A stretch of DNA of 22,913 nt from a virus. The notes below the pieces were generated by a model, which had not been told where the DNA came from, did no database searches, and saw only the letters and a list, made by a program, of their open reading frames with translations. The position numbers were made by a program, and so were the translations under genes. Shown in pieces: positions 13,403 through 21,737 of the stretch. The stretch's first letter is position 1. The number at the start of each line of letters is the position of its first letter. The stretch lies in IMG/VR virus record IMGVR_UViG_3300019752_000191, positions 1 through 22,913 of that record; one strand, written 5' to 3'.

Positions 13403-14872
13403 TTAACTGCTTCCCAATTCGTCCAACATTAGTAACCGTTCAACATTTATAGAATCAAACCCTCTTACCTTCACACTTCTCTCTCTTTCAGGTAACTTGC
13501 GAATCTGATTTGCTAGCTCCTGCAAGCTTTCCACTCCAAAGATAGGTAGCAACTTATTCAAAAATTCACGATTACCCGCTCGCTGGATAACTTCAAAAGA
13601 GGCCTCCCGATATCCACAATACGACAACATAATGGGGAACCAATGCTTACCTTCATACCCAGATGAATTAAGGGCATATTCCCCCCTATAAAACCCAATG
13701 CGCTGACGAACATAAAGAATAAAATCAGCTTGCATCAAATGCTCAAGTGTTACATCTCCCTTCAAGCAACGTTTCTTAATTAAAGCTTCGCGAAGATGGT
13801 CTCTACGACCCTCATTCAATGACTCCAAATAAGGATAGAAAACGTCAAACCCGTAAGATCGCTTTTGGTGTGAATGCCGTCGATGGACGATGTGGAGTTT
13901 ATGTGTGGTCAAATAAGAAACGACTGTAAACCTGTGCTCTTTCAAGAAAGCAGCTACACAGCACAAAAATGCTTCATGCAAAAAAAACTTATAATTATCA
14001 TGCAAGATATTATGGCGACTATTGAAACCATCTTCCGGCCAAATATAGGGATAAAAATCTTCAAAAAAGCGATGCAACCTTTCAGCTATTTCTTCAGTAG
14101 CACTGTACCGAGCTAATAGAACAAAGACTTCAACAAGTTCATCTCTATAAGGCTGAAAAGCCTCAATACTTTTGACTATTTCGTCACGGAAATCACTAGC
14201 ACTTTTTGACGAATACTCATCTGGTATTCTAAATTCCTTCAGCCCACCTAATAGGGCATGAAAATACTCATCTAGTGCGCTTTTCATATAAGGACGAGCA
14301 CTTTTAATTGCATCGACTAAGCGCCTATGGGCTACTCCAGTATTTATGGTTATGAGGTTATCTTCTTCAAGGAAAGCGGGTGGCTTGTCTGCCAATGCAG
14401 GTTTTTTATAATACGGCTTATCGTAAATCCATCGGACTAAGCGCTCGTACTCATCTACATATTTGGAATCATCAGATAAATCGATGCATAGATTTTGTTT
14501 AGCATAGATCGGAATACAAAGCTCGTTATTCTCATCACGTTCATCTACAACAACAACAAACTTATTTTGCTTAGTTTTATTATAGATTTCCGATGAAATA
14601 ATCTGAGACTCAGACCCTACACCACCATCTCTAGAGTTTGCTTTTCTCGCATATTCCTTGTCACTAAAAATAATAACTTTATCAATATTTTTATCAGATA
14701 CCATTTGTTCCATGAAATGCGAAATATCATGGCCGGGCTTCAAATCCCAGACATCTAACCTAACATCAACACGTTGACTAGTAAGGTTCTCTGCAAACTG
14801 CACAACTTTTTTTTGATGTGCATCATTTGTCCAGCTATATGAAATAAATACTGTTGGTACGCTTATAGGCAT
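13403..14872 (-). CDS. SEFIR (TIR-related) domain protein, candidate anti-phage defence effector
   Basis: A 489-residue protein. Residues about 5-155 are a SEFIR domain: FISYSW (9-14), then LDVWDLKPGHDISHFMEQM (39-57), then GGVGSESQIIS (83-93). E88 lies where TIR-type NADases carry key residues, but that match is inferred. Residues about 165-489 are a mostly helical region with no family I recognise and no membrane segment; it may sense phage or oligomerise. Bacterial SEFIR proteins are known defence genes that deplete NAD+ and abort infection. It is last in the repressor operon, 43 bases behind a secreted-protein gene, a typical cargo position, and a terminator follows. Expression from the repressor promoter in the lysogen is inferred. 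A separate promoter in the 43-base gap cannot be excluded. Confidence 0.8.
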   Translation of the reverse strand: MPISVPTVFISYSWTNDAHQKKVVQFAENLTSQRVDVRLDVWDLKPGHDISHFMEQMVSDKNIDKVIIFSDKEYARKANSRDGGVGSESQIISSEIYNKTKQNKFVVVVDERDENNELCIPIYAKQNLCIDLSDDSKYVDEYERLVRWIYDKPYYKKPALADKPPAFLEEDNLITINTGVAHRRLVDAIKSARPYMKSALDEYFHALLGGLKEFRIPDEYSSKSASDFRDEIVKSIEAFQPYRDELVEVFVLLARYSATEEIAERLHRFFEDFYPYIWPEDGFNSRHNILHDNYKFFLHEAFLCCVAAFLKEHRFTVVSYLTTHKLHIVHRRHSHQKRSYGFDVFYPYLESLNEGRRDHLREALIKKRCLKGDVTLEHLMQADFILYVRQRIGFYRGEYALNSSGYEGKHWFPIMLSYCGYREASFEVIQRAGNREFLNKLLPIFGVESLQELANQIRKLPERERSVKVRGFDSINVERLLMLDELGSS

Positions 14873-15389: not shown

Positions 15390-15890
15390 TTATCCTTTAT
15401 TCACTTTCCACTTCTTAAACTCAGGCACAGCCCGCTCTATTTGCTTCTCAAGCCACACACGATCATCTTCATCGTGTGTGTCCATCCAATCATTAATAAA
15501 ACCTACGAGACGAGCACCCCGCCCCCCATGCTTTTTTCCGTCATCCCTAACATCAATTGAGCCGTGGTTGTTGTGCACGGCGACAGAGTTGTTCTCATAG
15601 TTGTAGTTATTATTATTTCCGTCACTTGAGGCACGGTATGAGCGTTTATCTACTGGACTAATTTGCCCTGTTTCTGGAGTGGTCTGGTTGGTCATTAACC
15701 ACAATGTGTACTCAGGGAATGCGTTGCAAACCTTTTGAATAATTTCAAGGTTAGGCTTTCTTTCAAGGCGTTCTATTTTTGTCATCGTTGATGTAGACAC
15801 ATCAAGCAACTTGCAAAATTCAACTCTATTCAGGCTTTCAGTCTCACGAAGGACTGCTATTTTCTCAACGAACGTATTGACTTTACTCAT
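15390..15890 (-). CDS. XRE-family phage repressor (CI-like, no peptidase domain)
   Basis: From ATG 15890 the protein has 166 residues. An in-frame GTG at 15902 would add four. Neither start has a good ribosome binding site. The N-terminal helix-turn-helix is clear (NRVEFCKLLDVSTSTMTKIE and on to FPEYTLWLMT). A linker rich in Asn (SDGNNNNYNYENNS) follows, then a short C-terminal helical segment (INDWMDTHDEDDRVWLEKQI). It lacks the S24/LexA-type self-cleavage domain, so RecA-driven autocleavage is unlikely. It heads the - strand operon and faces the early operon, and inverted repeats lie directly upstream. A lysogeny repressor is the best reading. Confidence 0.75.
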   Translation of the reverse strand: MSKVNTFVEKIAVLRETESLNRVEFCKLLDVSTSTMTKIERLERKPNLEIIQKVCNAFPEYTLWLMTNQTTPETGQISPVDKRSYRASSDGNNNNYNYENNSVAVHNNHGSIDVRDDGKKHGGRGARLVGFINDWMDTHDEDDRVWLEKQIERAVPEFKKWKVNKG

Positions 15891-15904
15891 TCGGGTATGC
15901 ACAA

Positions 15905-15925
15905 TTGGGTTTACCCAAATGGGTA
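15905..15925. promoter_or_regulatory. Overlapping inverted repeats, candidate repressor operator
   Basis: TTGGGT (15905-15910), ACCCAA (15913-15918) and TGGGTA (15920-15925) form two overlapping palindromes that share the middle arm: TTGGGT-TT-ACCCAA and TACCCA-AA-TGGGTA. A further GGGTA lies at 15893-15897. They sit 15 bases upstream of the repressor ATG, in the divergent control region, and suit autoregulation. Which protein binds is inferred. Confidence 0.6.
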
Positions 15926-15978
15926 TATATAAACATTAATAAAACCTATGGCGCATATACGCGCATATATAAACATTA
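15925..15978. repeat. 14-bp direct repeat and 10-bp tandem repeat in the early control region
   Basis: ATATATAAACATTA occurs at 15925-15938 and again at 15965-15978, exactly 40 bases apart. Between them GCGCATATA[CT] is repeated in tandem (15951-15960, 15961-15970). The TATATA cores are plausible -10 elements for promoters on either strand. I see no good -35 box. They may be binding sites for the Cox-like protein or the repressor. Confidence 0.6.
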
Positions 15979-15997
15979 GCACCGGAGAGTATAGCAA

Positions 15998-16207
15998 ATG
16001 AACATTGTTTTCAATGTGCCCTTTATGACCATCGCCCAGTTTGCTCAGCACACTGGCCTTAGTAAGTCTTATATCAGCAAAAAAGCACAAGACGGCACTT
16101 TTCCAACACTTCCAAAGAAAAGCCCTCGTGAGTCTGTCTTAATTAACTTGGTGCAGTTGACAGAAAATATTAAGCGTTTTGAAGAAAGTCAGGCAGCCGC
16201 AGCATGA
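15998..16207 (+). CDS. Small DNA-binding protein, Cox/excisionase-like
   Basis: The protein has 69 residues, starts at ATG 15998, and has GGAGAG (15984-15989) upstream. Residues 10-40 form a MerR/AlpA-like helix-turn-helix (MTIAQFAQHTGLSKSYISKK followed by AQDGTFP), as in Cox and other small phage excision and control proteins. It is the first early gene and faces the repressor across the divergent control region, exactly where P2-like phages place cox. It would shut off the repressor promoter and promote excision by bending DNA at the attachment site. A Cro-like role alone is the main alternative. Confidence 0.65.
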   Translation: MNIVFNVPFMTIAQFAQHTGLSKSYISKKAQDGTFPTLPKKSPRESVLINLVQLTENIKRFEESQAAAA

Positions 16208-16296
16208 AACAAGCCACCCGCTGTAAGCCATTCACACAAGCAACATATAAGGAGAAATACGACACAGAAATGAGTCCAGCGCGAGCCGCTGTATAA
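16204..16296 (+). CDS. Possible 30-residue small ORF after the Cox-like gene
   Basis: ATG 16204 overlaps the Cox-like stop (ATGA) and opens a 30-codon frame, starting MKQATRCKPF and ending MSPARAAV, with its TAA in the loop of a hairpin (16285-16301). The overlap suggests coupled translation. It may be a short leader peptide for the structured region that follows, or simply chance. No family is recognised. Confidence 0.3.
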   Translation: MKQATRCKPFTQATYKEKYDTEMSPARAAV

Positions 16297-16461
16297 GCGG
16301 TCTGGCGAGTGCTACCAACACTTCACCAGACCTGCAACCGAAGTAACAGTAATACCTCGGAAGCCACAGGAACAAAGACAGTTGTTGCCTGCGCGTTCAT
16401 TATAACGCGTCTAAACGCCCTTTGCCCTGTGTTCCGACCAAAAACGTAAAACAGGAACACA
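16285..16461 (+). ncRNA. Structured leader or regulatory RNA upstream of the early operon genes
   Basis: The gap 16208-16464 holds several strong foldbacks. GCCGCT/AGCGGT lies at 16285-16301. A long hairpin at 16299-16332 has GGTCTGG paired with CCAGACC, then GAGTG with CACTT. An imperfect long hairpin spans 16357-16437: CGGAA-CACAGG with CCTGTG-TTCCG, CAAAG with CTTTG, and an inner CGCGTT/AACGCG. Its 3' arm (16428-16435) is also perfectly complementary to GGAACACA at 16454-16461, which holds the ribosome binding site of the next gene. This fits a translational switch. A small immunity RNA or a single-strand replication origin are alternatives. No known RNA family is recognised. Confidence 0.5.
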
Positions 16462-16464
16462 AAT

Positions 16465-16710
16465 ATGTTAGATGCAAGACAATTCGTTTCCGCCCTGCAC
16501 AGTCTGCTAGCAGAGCACCAATTAGATGCACTTCAATTTATCGCGGCAAAAGATGGCGATACAGTTGATGCAGTCAATATCACTTTTGATTCTACTAACC
16601 CCGATGTTCAAGAAAAGTTTGAATCCGAAATTCTAGAAATTGCTGTGAAATTATTAGATGCCAAAGGCGAAGCCACACTAGCCAACCGCCTCTGGGAGGT
16701 CATCTCATGA
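16465..16710 (+). CDS. Small early phage protein, unknown
   Basis: The 81-residue acidic protein starts at ATG 16465 with AGGA at 16453-16456. That ribosome binding site lies in the arm of a potential hairpin with bases 16428-16435. Two helices flank a strand pair (QFVSALHSLLAEHQLDALQF, then VDAVNITFDS). No domain is recognised and there is no signal or membrane segment. The stop overlaps the next start (ATGA at 16707), so it belongs to the early operon. Its function is unknown. Confidence 0.6.
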   Translation: MLDARQFVSALHSLLAEHQLDALQFIAAKDGDTVDAVNITFDSTNPDVQEKFESEILEIAVKLLDAKGEATLANRLWEVIS

Positions 16711-16970
16711 GCCGCAGCCTCTTCATTAATATGCTAAGCGCAGCTGGCCTAATTACAGCGAGCTTATCGCTCACTCCCTCAGGCTGGAATGCAGAGCCAA
16801 GTACCACCCTATTAACACTGGCACTATTTATACCCGTATTCACATTAGTAGTTGTGCTGTTTGTATTAGCAAAAATCGACCTAGTCGTTTGGGGCATGTT
16901 TGTCTTTTTTACTAACCTTGCCGTTGTGTCGATTACGCTAGCCTCTACTGTAGCGGGGGACTTGTTATGA
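16707..16970 (+). CDS. Small membrane protein, unknown
   Basis: The 87-residue protein has an N-terminal hydrophobic stretch (LFINMLSAAGLITASLSL), then two strong membrane helices (TLLTLALFIPVFTLVVVLFV and VWGMFVFFTNLAVVSITLAS). The first stretch could be a signal anchor. It overlaps both neighbours by 4 bases (ATGA at 16707 and 16967) and lies directly before a larger membrane protein, so the two probably act together in the inner membrane. No family is recognised. Confidence 0.6.
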   Translation: MSRSLFINMLSAAGLITASLSLTPSGWNAEPSTTLLTLALFIPVFTLVVVLFVLAKIDLVVWGMFVFFTNLAVVSITLASTVAGDLL

Positions 16971-18544
16971 ACTACAACGAACTGCAAGATAATCGGCACC
17001 GCGTATTTGTTGGAACTGCAACAATCTACTTAATACTAGCGGTATCATTCGCCGCAACGATTGCATACTGGGTAGTCTTGTCGGGCCTTGAAAACAGCAG
17101 CGATCTATCGACAGGCTGGCACTTTCTCCTTTGGCTAATCGTAGGCGTCGGTGCAGTATCCGAAATCATAAAAAAGGTCACTTTATCGACCTACCGTCAT
17201 GCAGGTATCTGGTTTGTTGCAACAGCAGTATCAGTCCTCACGGTCATGGGTACGTATGCAATCCTAAACGCTGACCGGCAAGACAAAATCAACAAGGCAA
17301 GTGACAACTACCAGTCAGGCAAAATCATGCAACAACGTGGCATGGATGCAGCCGCAAACTATGCCCACGCAGCCGCGTATGACCTAAAGGCACTACAGCA
17401 ACAATTAGATGATGTCGTGTGCGCACGAGCAGCAGACTGCGGCGGTGGGCGTTCTATCAGCTACGCTGTCTACCTTAAGCAAAAGTCATCCCTGAAAAGC
17501 AAAATAGCTGACGCACAAGCGTACCAGCGAGCCATGGGCACCGTAGCAATGGGTAAGCAGCAAATGGCCGGTGGCGGTACAAATGCCAGCAGCAACCCCC
17601 TACTTTCAGATGTTGCAAGTTACACAGGCGCATCCGAAAAAATGCTGATTAACCTATTTTACCTTGCAGTGACATTGCTACTGGAGTTCGCAGCCTATTA
17701 CATCGGTGGCAAAGTTGAAGAGCAACGACAAGCACAACGCTATACAGAGATTGAGCTACTTGAACGCAAAAACAAATCAACATTTGGTGTGACCGTTGGC
17801 GAACTCATGGGGATTGAAGACGCCTTACAGATCGAACCAGTTAAGCCTGTGGAGGCTAAAAAGTTCACCCCCCCTCCCCCTGCTGAACCCATGATTACAG
17901 CCCCAACAACACCCAGAAATCAGCCCGAAAAAACAGATAAAAACAAGCCAGTCACGGCATCCGCTAATGAGACTATAAGCCAGCCAAAAAAGGAGGTCAC
18001 ATCAACGACTGAAACAGTCAAACAAGAGCCACAGGCAGAAGTCGAAAAAGTACCGTTTGGTTTCTCACCAAAACCAAAGCCAGCCGCAAAAGCATACAGC
18101 ATGGCAGGTGCTTCAGAGGTCACCGCTAAGCGCGTACAAGGTACTGAACACACAGACTTAAAAGTAGGGAAAACAGACAAACAAGCACCACCAAAACACA
18201 CCGAACACACAAGCCAAAAAGCGCGTGTTTCTAAGTGCGCCCACATAGAACACACAGGAAACACACAGAATCCAAACACGCAAAACACACAGGATACTGA
18301 CACGCTATACCACGACTGGGAGCAAGCCATCAGGACTGAAAAAATTCGCCCCGTAGCTCGTGAATCCCGTGTGTTTATTCAAAAACGAATCAGTGGTGAT
18401 CAACGTCACAAAACCTCAATGACCATCAAACAATGCGGCGATATATCCAAAGTATTTATGATGAAAGCATTGATAAAAGGGGTGTTGATTGAGAACCCAA
18501 AAAAGGCCGCAAATCAGCCAAAATATTTACTTAAAAAGGATTAA
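16967..18544 (+). CDS. Four-helix membrane protein with C-terminal winged-helix-like segment
   Basis: The protein has 525 residues. Membrane helices lie at about 13-38, 51-67, 80-100 and 226-247. A 125-residue loop (101-225), partly coiled-coil, with C152 and C158, lies between helices 3 and 4. With four helices both ends face the same side, presumably the cytoplasm. Residues about 255-445 are a long Pro/Thr/Lys-rich linker with a TPPPPAEP run and repeated EHT motifs. Residues about 447-525 resemble a winged helix (SMTIKQCGDISKVFMMKALI then GVLIENP...PKYLLKK). It lies two genes upstream of the primase-helicase. Tethering of replicating DNA to the membrane is a hypothesis. No family is recognised. 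The gene also holds an iteron-like cluster. Confidence 0.6.
   Translation: MNYNELQDNRHRVFVGTATIYLILAVSFAATIAYWVVLSGLENSSDLSTGWHFLLWLIVGVGAVSEIIKKVTLSTYRHAGIWFVATAVSVLTVMGTYAILNADRQDKINKASDNYQSGKIMQQRGMDAAANYAHAAAYDLKALQQQLDDVVCARAADCGGGRSISYAVYLKQKSSLKSKIADAQAYQRAMGTVAMGKQQMAGGGTNASSNPLLSDVASYTGASEKMLINLFYLAVTLLLEFAAYYIGGKVEEQRQAQRYTEIELLERKNKSTFGVTVGELMGIEDALQIEPVKPVEAKKFTPPPPAEPMITAPTTPRNQPEKTDKNKPVTASANETISQPKKEVTSTTETVKQEPQAEVEKVPFGFSPKPKPAAKAYSMAGASEVTAKRVQGTEHTDLKVGKTDKQAPPKHTEHTSQKARVSKCAHIEHTGNTQNPNTQNTQDTDTLYHDWEQAIRTEKIRPVARESRVFIQKRISGDQRHKTSMTIKQCGDISKVFMMKALIKGVLIENPKKAANQPKYLLKKD
18147..18292 (+). repeat. Iteron-like cluster of AACACACA[G/A]
   Basis: Five copies begin at 18147, 18204, 18249, 18260 and 18284, with partial copies near 18195 and 18274. 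They lie in the linker-coding part of the membrane protein gene, about 650 bases upstream of the primase-helicase start. Many phages keep their replication origin as repeats inside a gene next to the replication protein. The low-complexity His/Thr-rich coding could also explain the repeats. Confidence 0.4.
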
Positions 18545-18549
18545 TAGCG

Positions 18550-18780
18550 ATGTCTCAAAATACACTAAATAGCAAGGCAACTGTTGCGGCATACCGTGAT
18601 CATTTCTGGGTAGCCGACATCCAGTTAGCAGTCACAGCAGACAAGATAAAAGCCTTTGGTTCAGGGCATAAGCTTGTTGAGTTTGAGCAGCAGTGGATCG
18701 ACCAACCAGAAGATTTTGAAGCAGAGATAATGCACGCAATTGATCATGCATTTGATGTTGAGCAGGTTACAGAGAACTAA
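18550..18780 (+). CDS. Small early phage protein, unknown
   Basis: The 76-residue acidic protein starts at ATG 18550, 5 bases after the membrane protein stop, with AAGGAT upstream. It has the look of a small alpha/beta protein (YRDHFWVADIQLAVTADKIK, then a helical end PEDFEAEIMHAIDHAFDVEQ). No domain is recognised. It sits between the membrane protein and the primase leader and is likely part of the replication block. Confidence 0.55.
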   Translation: MSQNTLNSKATVAAYRDHFWVADIQLAVTADKIKAFGSGHKLVEFEQQWIDQPEDFEAEIMHAIDHAFDVEQVTEN

Positions 18781-18944: not shown

Positions 18945-21737
18945 ATGAAACGTGATGATTTAATACCGGATATTCAAGCAAAATTGAAAGAAGCACCATA
19001 CCATTGCAAGCTAAAAGGCAAACACTTAGAACAAGGTGTCTGCCCACAGTGCAACAAAAAAAGCTTGTGGACTTGGAATGAGCAACCTTGGAACGTGCAA
19101 TGTAATAAAAAGAACAGCTGCGGTTACACAGAGCGCGTTGAAAAACTCTTCCCAGAAATCTTCACCGAGCTAAGCAAACGCTATATTCCTACTGATGAAA
19201 ACCCCAATGCAACAGCTGATGCTTACCTAAAGTATATCCGTGGACTGGATCACAACTTATTGCGTGGCCAATATCAACAGTCAGTCATTTTCAACAGCGA
19301 CAACCGGAATATCACCGCACCCAGTATTCGTATTTTCCTTGATACTGAAAAAACCCGTTACTTTGAACGGGTGATAGAGGATGAAAAAGCCGTGGGTAAA
19401 AAAGCCCACTTTGGTGGTAAGCGCAAAGCCGACGGCAGTTTATTCAAAGGTGACGTGTGGCAACCACAAACCCAGAATTTACAAGCAGGTGACCGCATAC
19501 ATATTGTTGAAGGGATCTTTGATGCCATTGCACTGTGCCAAGCAGGTTACAAAGCAATCAGCTGTCTCAGCGCCGGCATGTTTCCATACGAATTCATCAA
19601 AGCAAACGACGACTTCACAAACTCAAAAAGGTATGAATGGGTCTGGGCACTAGATAACGACAAAGCTGGCATTAACGCCGCCATCAAGCACATGAAAACC
19701 ATGTCGGAAACGTTCGGCATTGACTCCAGCTGCATACTCCCTGAAAAGGGCAGTGACTGGAACGACCTATTAAACGCTGGCAAGCTCACCAAACACAAAG
19801 ACAGTAACGGCAGATCCACCAAGCCAACACCCGATGCAGAAAGCTATCGGCGATATAAGTTTTATGGCGACTGTGCAACCGCTGAAACAGCCGAAGAAAA
19901 GGCAATGATCATTTATGCATACCGTGGCCGGTCGTTTTTCACATTCGACTTTGCCAAGCGCATGTACGGCTTTGAACTGGATATGACCGCGTTCAATGAC
20001 AAAATGTCAGACCTTGAAACCGCTTATAAAAAAGACAACGGTCTGGAAGAGCAGGACAAAATACCCCGTGATGAAGTCGAAAAACTGAGAAACCTTGCAC
20101 TAAAGCAAAGCACCTCGGTCATGGAAATTGCAAACTGTGTACCAGAGTTCCTTTACACCCAGCGCAACCCAGCAGCCGATGAACTCGCTTATTTCTACCG
20201 CGTCTCCATGCCTAATGGCAAAGTGTACAAAGACACTTTCAGCAATGCCCAGCAGCAAACGGCTAACAAATTCAACGAGCGCCTTGGATCATTCGCAGCC
20301 GGTGCCATGTTTGATGGTGGAGCCAACTTCTATAGCAACCTACGAAAAAGCTGGATGTATGACGTGCAAGAGATCCGAGCCATCGACTTTGCAGGCTATG
20401 ACGCCACCAGCGGTGGGTATGTTTTCCCAGAGTTCGGCGTATTCAACGGCGAAGTCCACAAGCTGAACAATGAGGAATTCATTGATACAGGCAAGGTGCA
20501 GATCAAAAGCAGCTATCACAACGTCGATATCAAATGTAATACCGACCTAAACGACTACTCAGACGAATGGTTTCACAAAGTCCATGAAGCTTGGGGCATG
20601 AATGGACTTATCGCAGCCTGTTACTTCACGGGGGCTGTGTTTGCTAACCAGATCCGCGACCGCTTGCAAAACTTCCCATTTTTAGAATTGGTCGGTGATC
20701 CCGGTACAGGTAAATCAGCCTTGCTCAAAGGTCTATGGGAAGCCTTTGGCAGACGTGGGCACGAAGGCACCAACCCCGGTGGCCGTAAAGGCACCGCCAA
20801 GTTTTTACCCCGTGTACTGGCACAAACCACCTTACCCACGGTATTTGTGGAAGGAGACAGCGGAAGTGATAACGAAAAAACCAAAAGTAGCGGTGTGAAC
20901 TGGGACGATTTCAAGGATTTATATGGCGGTATTGGTCTGTACGGTAAAGCCAATATGTCAAATGACAATCAAATAAAAATCTCAGACTTTCGTGGATCAC
21001 TGGTCATTGCACAGAACTATCCAGTGAAAGACGCACAACCCGCATTCCTTCAACGTATTGTGCAATGCTGGTTTGACAGCAGAAACAAAAGTGAAGATAC
21101 ACGCAAAGCTGCCGAAGCCTTGTACCAGTTGGACAGCGACAATATGAGTGGCTACCTCATCAAAGTCATTCAGAAAGAAAAGCAATTCCTTGAGGTATTT
21201 TTCAAAGTACAAAAGGAAGCCGAACAACGACTATTACAAGATCCTAATATCAAAATCCAACGAATTGCCTTTACCCATAGCGTGATTATGGGACTGATTA
21301 AGGCATCTTGCATGCTACTACCCATCAAAAAAGAAACGGCGGACCAAGCACTGTTACACGTTCGCAACATGGCACAAGACCGGCAAGTGTTTATCAATAG
21401 CGAAGACCCACGCGTAGAAGCGTACTTTGATGCTATCGACTTCATGAGCAATATGCGCCACAACCCCACCTCATTTAACCATTCCAAAAATGACGACTTG
21501 CTAGCCATTGACCTTGCGCATGTTGAAAGTGAGGCACGGAGACACGGTGTGAATGTGTTACCTGTTGTTGAGATAAAGCCATTACTAGAACGCTCACAAG
21601 CGTTTGTTAAAAAGAACCACCCCGTAGCATCCGCAATATTAGGTAAAACCAAAAAATGCTGGGTATTCAAGGCACGCCCCAAGCTGACATCTGATGATGC
21701 AATGGAATTAGATGGACTACTGGAGGGGAGTGTATGA
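18945..21737 (+). CDS. Phage DNA primase-helicase (zinc finger, Toprim, P-loop ATPase)
   Basis: I start at ATG 18945, which follows AGGAG (18935-18939); an upstream in-frame codon at 18912 lacks such a site. The 930-residue protein has an N-terminal primase zinc finger (C33, C36, C53, C59), a Toprim-like domain (IHIVEGIFDAIALC with E189 and D193, then ALDNDKAG at 235-242, then DWND at 271-274), and a C-terminal ATPase with Walker A GDPGTGKS at about 584-591 and a probable Walker B (TVFVEGDSG, about 630). This is the plan of combined primase-helicase proteins of phages and mobile elements, which open the origin and prime synthesis. It sits after a structured leader and before the integrase. 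Confidence 0.85.
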   Translation: MKRDDLIPDIQAKLKEAPYHCKLKGKHLEQGVCPQCNKKSLWTWNEQPWNVQCNKKNSCGYTERVEKLFPEIFTELSKRYIPTDENPNATADAYLKYIRGLDHNLLRGQYQQSVIFNSDNRNITAPSIRIFLDTEKTRYFERVIEDEKAVGKKAHFGGKRKADGSLFKGDVWQPQTQNLQAGDRIHIVEGIFDAIALCQAGYKAISCLSAGMFPYEFIKANDDFTNSKRYEWVWALDNDKAGINAAIKHMKTMSETFGIDSSCILPEKGSDWNDLLNAGKLTKHKDSNGRSTKPTPDAESYRRYKFYGDCATAETAEEKAMIIYAYRGRSFFTFDFAKRMYGFELDMTAFNDKMSDLETAYKKDNGLEEQDKIPRDEVEKLRNLALKQSTSVMEIANCVPEFLYTQRNPAADELAYFYRVSMPNGKVYKDTFSNAQQQTANKFNERLGSFAAGAMFDGGANFYSNLRKSWMYDVQEIRAIDFAGYDATSGGYVFPEFGVFNGEVHKLNNEEFIDTGKVQIKSSYHNVDIKCNTDLNDYSDEWFHKVHEAWGMNGLIAACYFTGAVFANQIRDRLQNFPFLELVGDPGTGKSALLKGLWEAFGRRGHEGTNPGGRKGTAKFLPRVLAQTTLPTVFVEGDSGSDNEKTKSSGVNWDDFKDLYGGIGLYGKANMSNDNQIKISDFRGSLVIAQNYPVKDAQPAFLQRIVQCWFDSRNKSEDTRKAAEALYQLDSDNMSGYLIKVIQKEKQFLEVFFKVQKEAEQRLLQDPNIKIQRIAFTHSVIMGLIKASCMLLPIKKETADQALLHVRNMAQDRQVFINSEDPRVEAYFDAIDFMSNMRHNPTSFNHSKNDDLLAIDLAHVESEARRHGVNVLPVVEIKPLLERSQAFVKKNHPVASAILGKTKKCWVFKARPKLTSDDAMELDGLLEGSV

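Follow-up and report, generated by a model that had tools for sequence, protein, structure and literature searches.

Alternative predicted folds of a non-coding leader ahead of the early operon in a fragment of a P2-like temperate phage

Control elements placed between cox and the early operon are a frequent arrangement in phages. In the P4 CI and P1 C4 immunity RNAs the Shine-Dalgarno (SD) sequence is repeated upstream and an anti-SD lies between the two copies, and the C4 antisense RNA is a stable small RNA processed by RNase P. The lambda cIII mRNA exists as an equilibrium of SD-covered and SD-open folds (PMC10226581, PMC2777011), and for the isrK-orf45 leader of Gifsy-1 the predicted energies of the two forms are -85.66 and -84.21 kcal/mol (PMC4825925). 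Here we analysed a virus record of 22.9 kb (the whole stretch is referred to as the window) in which the defining property of a bistable leader, namely two exclusive folds of similar stability with one covering the SD, was found by computation only. A search of the window with the isrK-family model gave no match, including at E<=10.

Gene neighbourhood and the non-coding leader

The window covers part of the genome of a P2-like temperate phage and contains tail genes, a tape measure whose N-terminal part resembles that of Vibrio phage K139, a repressor gene that runs divergently (15390-15902, minus strand), a Cox-like regulator, a primase/helicase (PHROG 1139; likely start 18946) and an integrase. 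The best primase matches listed in public phages, in viral contigs and in 84,980 genomes reached up to about 35% identity, and when Cox, orf81, orf525, the primase and the repressor were each used in single-protein scans, no close kin appeared among the matches listed; the phage is an orphan without a close known relative. Between the divergent repressor and cox, an exact 14-bp direct repeat, ATATATAAACATTA, occurs at 15925 and 15965, and GCGCATATA is also repeated within the same interval (15903-15997); both repeats are probable operators. A gene on the minus strand near the prophage repressor (13403-14872) encodes a SEFIR/TIR-domain protein with a strong match to the bSEFIR anti-phage defence family (PADLOC E 1e-99), and a SIR2-like gene occupies a similar position near the repressor of Vibrio phage L009.

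From 16204 onward, the gene order is orf30, a non-coding leader, orf81, orf87, orf525, primase/helicase and integrase. The cox-like excisionase/repressor gene 5' of the leader (15998-16207, plus strand; PHROG 575, E 8e-16) overlaps at its stop codon (ATGA) with orf30, a frame of 30 codons (16204-16296, plus strand) whose codon score of 0.124 is like that of the window genes and which is likely the last frame before the leader to be translated. The first gene of the early operon, orf81 (16465-16710, plus strand), belongs to no known family and is the presumed regulated gene; it is followed by orf87 and orf525 (16707-18544, plus strand), each of which begins in the stop codon of the preceding gene (ATGA). 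Residues 444-521 of orf525 (18296-18529) resemble the C-terminal parts of two proteins from another genome (L175 and L176, ~29% identity), and no protein match was found for orf525 outside these C-terminal 78 residues.

The leader comprises the 168 nt between orf30 and orf81 and is, by its codon usage and similarity searches, non-coding. Frame 16297-16449 remains open for 51 codons after the orf30 TAA, in frame with it and right through the hairpin described below, but its codon score of -0.091 resembles that of wrong frames (-0.070) rather than that of genes (0.171 +/- 0.080). Searching Pfam, PHROGs, NCBIfam and phages with this frame gave nothing, and its plasmid matches were weak (E 0.7 or worse). 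A coding role for it was ruled out on the basis of the wrong-frame-like codon score together with the lack of a convincing match. No internal promoter or terminator was found when the leader was scanned for them.

Pairings and predicted folds of the leader

Strong hairpins occupy most of 16299-16437. The first of them (GGTCTGG...CCAGACC, 16299-16332, plus strand) lies just 3' of the orf30 stop and has no T run, and folding places a weak hairpin (CCGA...CTCGG, 16338-16360, plus strand) next to it as a competitor of the base of the long hairpin. The long hairpin itself (16357-16437) had been proposed in a preliminary description with an outer stem of 11 bp and an inner hairpin of 6 bp; it exists, with an outer stem of 12 bp arranged as 6 + 6 (UCGGAA 16357-16362 with UUCCGA 16432-16437; CACAGG 16365-16370 with CCUGUG 16426-16431) around a GC bulge at 16363-16364. 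The proposed stem extension (CAAAG 16373-16377 with CUUUG 16420-16424) was recovered unchanged, and the inner hairpin (GCGCGTT/AACGCGT, 16391-16410, plus strand) pairs 16391-16397 with 16404-16410 through 7 bp, one of them G-U.

The elements that compete for pairing, all on the plus strand, are denoted here A, B, B' and C. Element A is the 5' arm of the long hairpin (16357-16377), and the 3' arm (16420-16437) carries element B (TGTGTTCC, 16428-16435) followed by CCA and can pair with either A or C. Element C (ACAGGAACACA, 16451-16461) includes the SD of orf81 (AGGA, 16453-16456, 8 nt before the ATG at 16465). As the preliminary description had stated, the target sequence is present in both competing partners: ACAGGAACA forms an exact 9-nt direct repeat with one copy in A (16366-16374) and the second in C (16451-16459). 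B can form 6 bp with GGAACA in A and 8 bp with GGAACACA in C, the latter being the perfect helix claimed earlier between UGUGUUCC (16428-16435) and GGAACACA (16454-16461); no other perfect helix in 16300-16470 is as long, and the downstream strand of this one overlaps the orf81 SD. A fourth strand, B' (TTGTTGCCTG, 16382-16391), was absent from the earlier account: when A is free of B, it pairs as UUGUUGCCUG with CAGGAACAA in A (16367-16375) with one bulge, and in the full-leader fold this pairing has a probability of about 0.8-0.9.

Two exclusive folds are predicted from these pairings, A:B, which leaves the SD free of B, and A:B' plus B:C, which covers it; the 7-bp inner hairpin belongs to the A:B state and keeps 6 bp in the B:C state. 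In thermodynamic models the gap between the folds was 0.3-3 kcal/mol in leaders retaining the region around 16338. Constrained energies for the 263-nt leader (16208-16470) were -66.7 kcal/mol for A:B and -69.6 kcal/mol for B:C (gap 2.9), and in shorter contexts retaining that region the gap was 0.3-1.1 kcal/mol (-50.8 vs -51.9 kcal/mol for 16297-16470 and -39.9 vs -39.6 kcal/mol for 16312-16500); the corresponding energies for 16346-16470 were -31.1 and -26.7 kcal/mol. The minimum-energy fold of the 263-nt leader is A:B' plus B:C, with a B:C probability of 0.95, and the A:B probability reaches 0.98 for RNA from about 16345 to 16470. For A:B to prevail, the RNA must either be nascent and stop short of 16461 or have its 5' end near 16345; as the transcript lengthens, A:B' appears first, A:B is dominant while the 3' end lies at 16438-16455, and from 16461 B:C gains ground or takes over. 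The barrier between the states is about 13 kcal/mol, so that slow switching would be allowed, and in the models the balance is almost independent of temperature in whole mRNA. In longer RNA extending into orf81, the models give the SD partners inside that gene, and it is mostly paired even with A:B formed (SD unpaired 0.23); A:B need therefore not mean an open SD.

The preliminary description had interpreted the competing stems as a translational switch for the whole downstream operon. The competing stems at the ribosome binding site (RBS) are real and their energies are near balance, but the system has four strands, not three, and the SD-covered state dominates in the intact leader (B:C probability about 0.95). 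Control of the whole operon would be favoured by the ATGA overlaps of orf81, orf87 and orf525, and is weakened by the small ORF and 165-base gap that precede the primase.

Chance, processing and antisense RNA as alternatives

There is a substantial possibility that the arrangement arose by chance, with a strong hairpin in an intergenic leader that happens to hold an anti-SD 8-mer and no regulatory switch. Two near-equal folds are common in random RNAs. An SD helix of at least 8 bp was found in about 2% of shuffles, an SD complement of this kind was present at 0.8% of 1357 real gene starts (starts with an SD in fetched related loci), and the feature was chosen after many leaders had been read; furthermore, accessibility of the AGGA core was ordinary, being no lower than in shuffles (P 0.29). 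Against chance, the long hairpin (z about -4.2) was equalled by 1/1000 shuffles, the SD helix and the stem occurred jointly in about 0.4% of shuffles (P 0.004), and 9 nt of the SD region recur exactly in the competing arm. An SD complement combined with an upstream copy of the target was present at 0.3% of the 1357 gene starts, and within the window the orf81 start was the only one to pass the SD-complement/repeat test. The GGAACACA stretch was less accessible than in shuffles (P 0.005). The arrangement is thus unusual, yet not overwhelming for a feature chosen after reading the sequence, and it speaks for design with moderate weight.

Homologues of the leader were sought with the leader DNA, with the repeat-hairpin-SD pattern and through the Cox, orf81, orf525, repressor and primase proteins. 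The matches listed included no homologous leader from which covariation of the pairs could be read, and consisted of distant relatives of single proteins, none with a leader in common; because the sampled genome searches covered a few hundred genomes per group, its absence is weak evidence. With no relatives of the leader among these matches, chance stays a serious rival.

It is rather unlikely that the region is instead a processing or stability element between cox and the operon (an RNase III-type site, a 5'-end stabiliser or a pause) to which the SD complement is secondary. Such an element would fit the strong hairpins over most of 16299-16437, and cleavage upstream of about 16345 alone would favour A:B; however, neither hairpin has a terminator-like T run after it, and the exact anti-SD and the repeated SD sequence would be left unexplained.

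The logic of the locus equals that of C4 RNAs. In P4, N15 and L008 one C4 element (CCTGTGAA, CTTCTTGT or CTTGTAGA) is complementary both to a copy upstream and to the SD region of the gene that follows, and the anti-SD in the window can likewise pair with both an upstream copy and the SD of the following gene. Scanning 5.5 Mb of strand with a strict detector for the repeat/anti-SD logic gave 18 matches, among them P4 and four further loci (L037, L071, L089 and L109), these five all being Rfam C4 RNAs. A looser detector flagged the window together with one true C4 and three further starts. Searching for a repeated SD plus anti-SD recovers C4 loci without any model. The same four loci, whose primases are of the window's family, carry C4 antisense RNAs (two in L109), and most of them also have isrK or c4-a1b1 elements.

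The window had no match to the C4 (RF01695) and C4-target models at gathering or E<=10; P4, N15, L008 and others were matched as positive controls for the C4 model. No second element (a') with a1 and a2 targets was found, a single repeat being common to the A and C regions, whereas P4, N15 and L008 each have two C4 elements. Opening B costs 13.8 kcal/mol, as compared to 0-2.6 kcal/mol for C4 controls, and the net energy of B:C pairing in trans is +3.4 to +4.9 kcal/mol, as compared to -1.5 to -8.2 kcal/mol for the C4 RNAs of six loci; with B locked in the stem, trans pairing is unfavourable. Membership in the C4/CI antisense RNAs was rejected on the covariance model, the missing second element and the pairing energy. 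In these models action in trans would be unlikely and action in cis natural. It is accordingly improbable that the hairpin is excised as a C4/CI-type antisense RNA, in which case B would bind the A and C copies of newly made transcripts, block the RBS and keep the early operon off in lysogens, despite the matching place between regulator and replication genes and the RNase P-like ACCA at the end of the stem, the P4 counterpart of which is GCCA.

A possible cis-acting switch and its known counterparts

We tentatively favour the reading that the leader is a cis-acting two-state RNA of the lambda cIII / isrK-orf45 kind that would set orf81 translation. Its demonstrated part is the sequence complementarity, the computed energies and the location; formation of the states in the cell, their effect on translation and what would tip the balance between them are inferred. 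In state 1, A would pair with B in the long hairpin, so that B would not hold the orf81 SD; in state 2, A would pair with B' while C is taken up by B, which would hide the SD and the sequence after it to within 3 nt of the start codon. As the RNA is made, A:B' would form earliest, A:B would be preferred after B emerges, and B:C would be preferred once the SD is made; a new transcript could be translatable at first and then shut off. Alternatively, cleavage within the 5' part of the leader, or binding of a factor there, could keep the transcript open, and candidate triggers are transcript age, cleavage near 16340 and a bound factor. Within 16368-16405, the upstream SD copy in A precedes TTG TTG CCT GCG CGT TCA TTA TAA (16382-16405), and a mini-ORF could in principle start after this copy, its translation blocking A.

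The ATGA overlaps suggest that orf81, orf87 and orf525 are probably translationally coupled, in which case translation of orf87 and orf525 would follow that of orf81. An effect of the leader on the primase is less certain, because the likely primase start at 18946 lies beyond a small ORF (18550-18780) and a further 165 bases. The small ORF begins ATGTCTCAAAAT, and the likely primase ATG has its own AGGAG. If the cis-acting switch is true, the early operon of a phage would have a leader governed by alternative RNA folds, with C4-like repeat logic operating in cis; if it is not, the locus would warn that a hairpin can contain an 8-bp match to the SD by chance at about the percent level.

The leader resembles the C4/P4 CI RNAs (RF01695, RF03163) in its upstream SD repeat with an anti-SD between the copies, in its site between a regulator and the replication operon, and in the RCCA-like end of its long stem. 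In contrast to the C4 core, in which a long P1 encloses P2 and P3, it has no two-hairpin P2/P3 core; its anti-SD is locked in a stem with a single target element, whereas that of C4 is exposed in a loop with two elements, and its spacing is compact (B is 37 nt before the start, as compared to about 83-99 nt in the C4 loci found). We regard it as quite unlikely that the leader is a compact one-element C4/CI derivative or independent analogue that has its anti-SD strand in the stem and acts in cis; were it so, the age or cleavage of the nascent transcript, without a separate RNA, would decide early-operon translation. The two-state switch that we favour has a counterpart in Gifsy-1 isrK-orf45-anrP, also an operon leader with two exclusive folds of near-equal predicted energy, in which most wild-type RNA takes the silent fold and the first small ORF is under translational control; it differs in that IsrK additionally acts in trans, as an sRNA that opens the leader (PMC4825925). 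Like the lambda cIII mRNA, the transcript considered here would be an early phage mRNA with alternative SD-covered and SD-open folds, which in the window are predicted.
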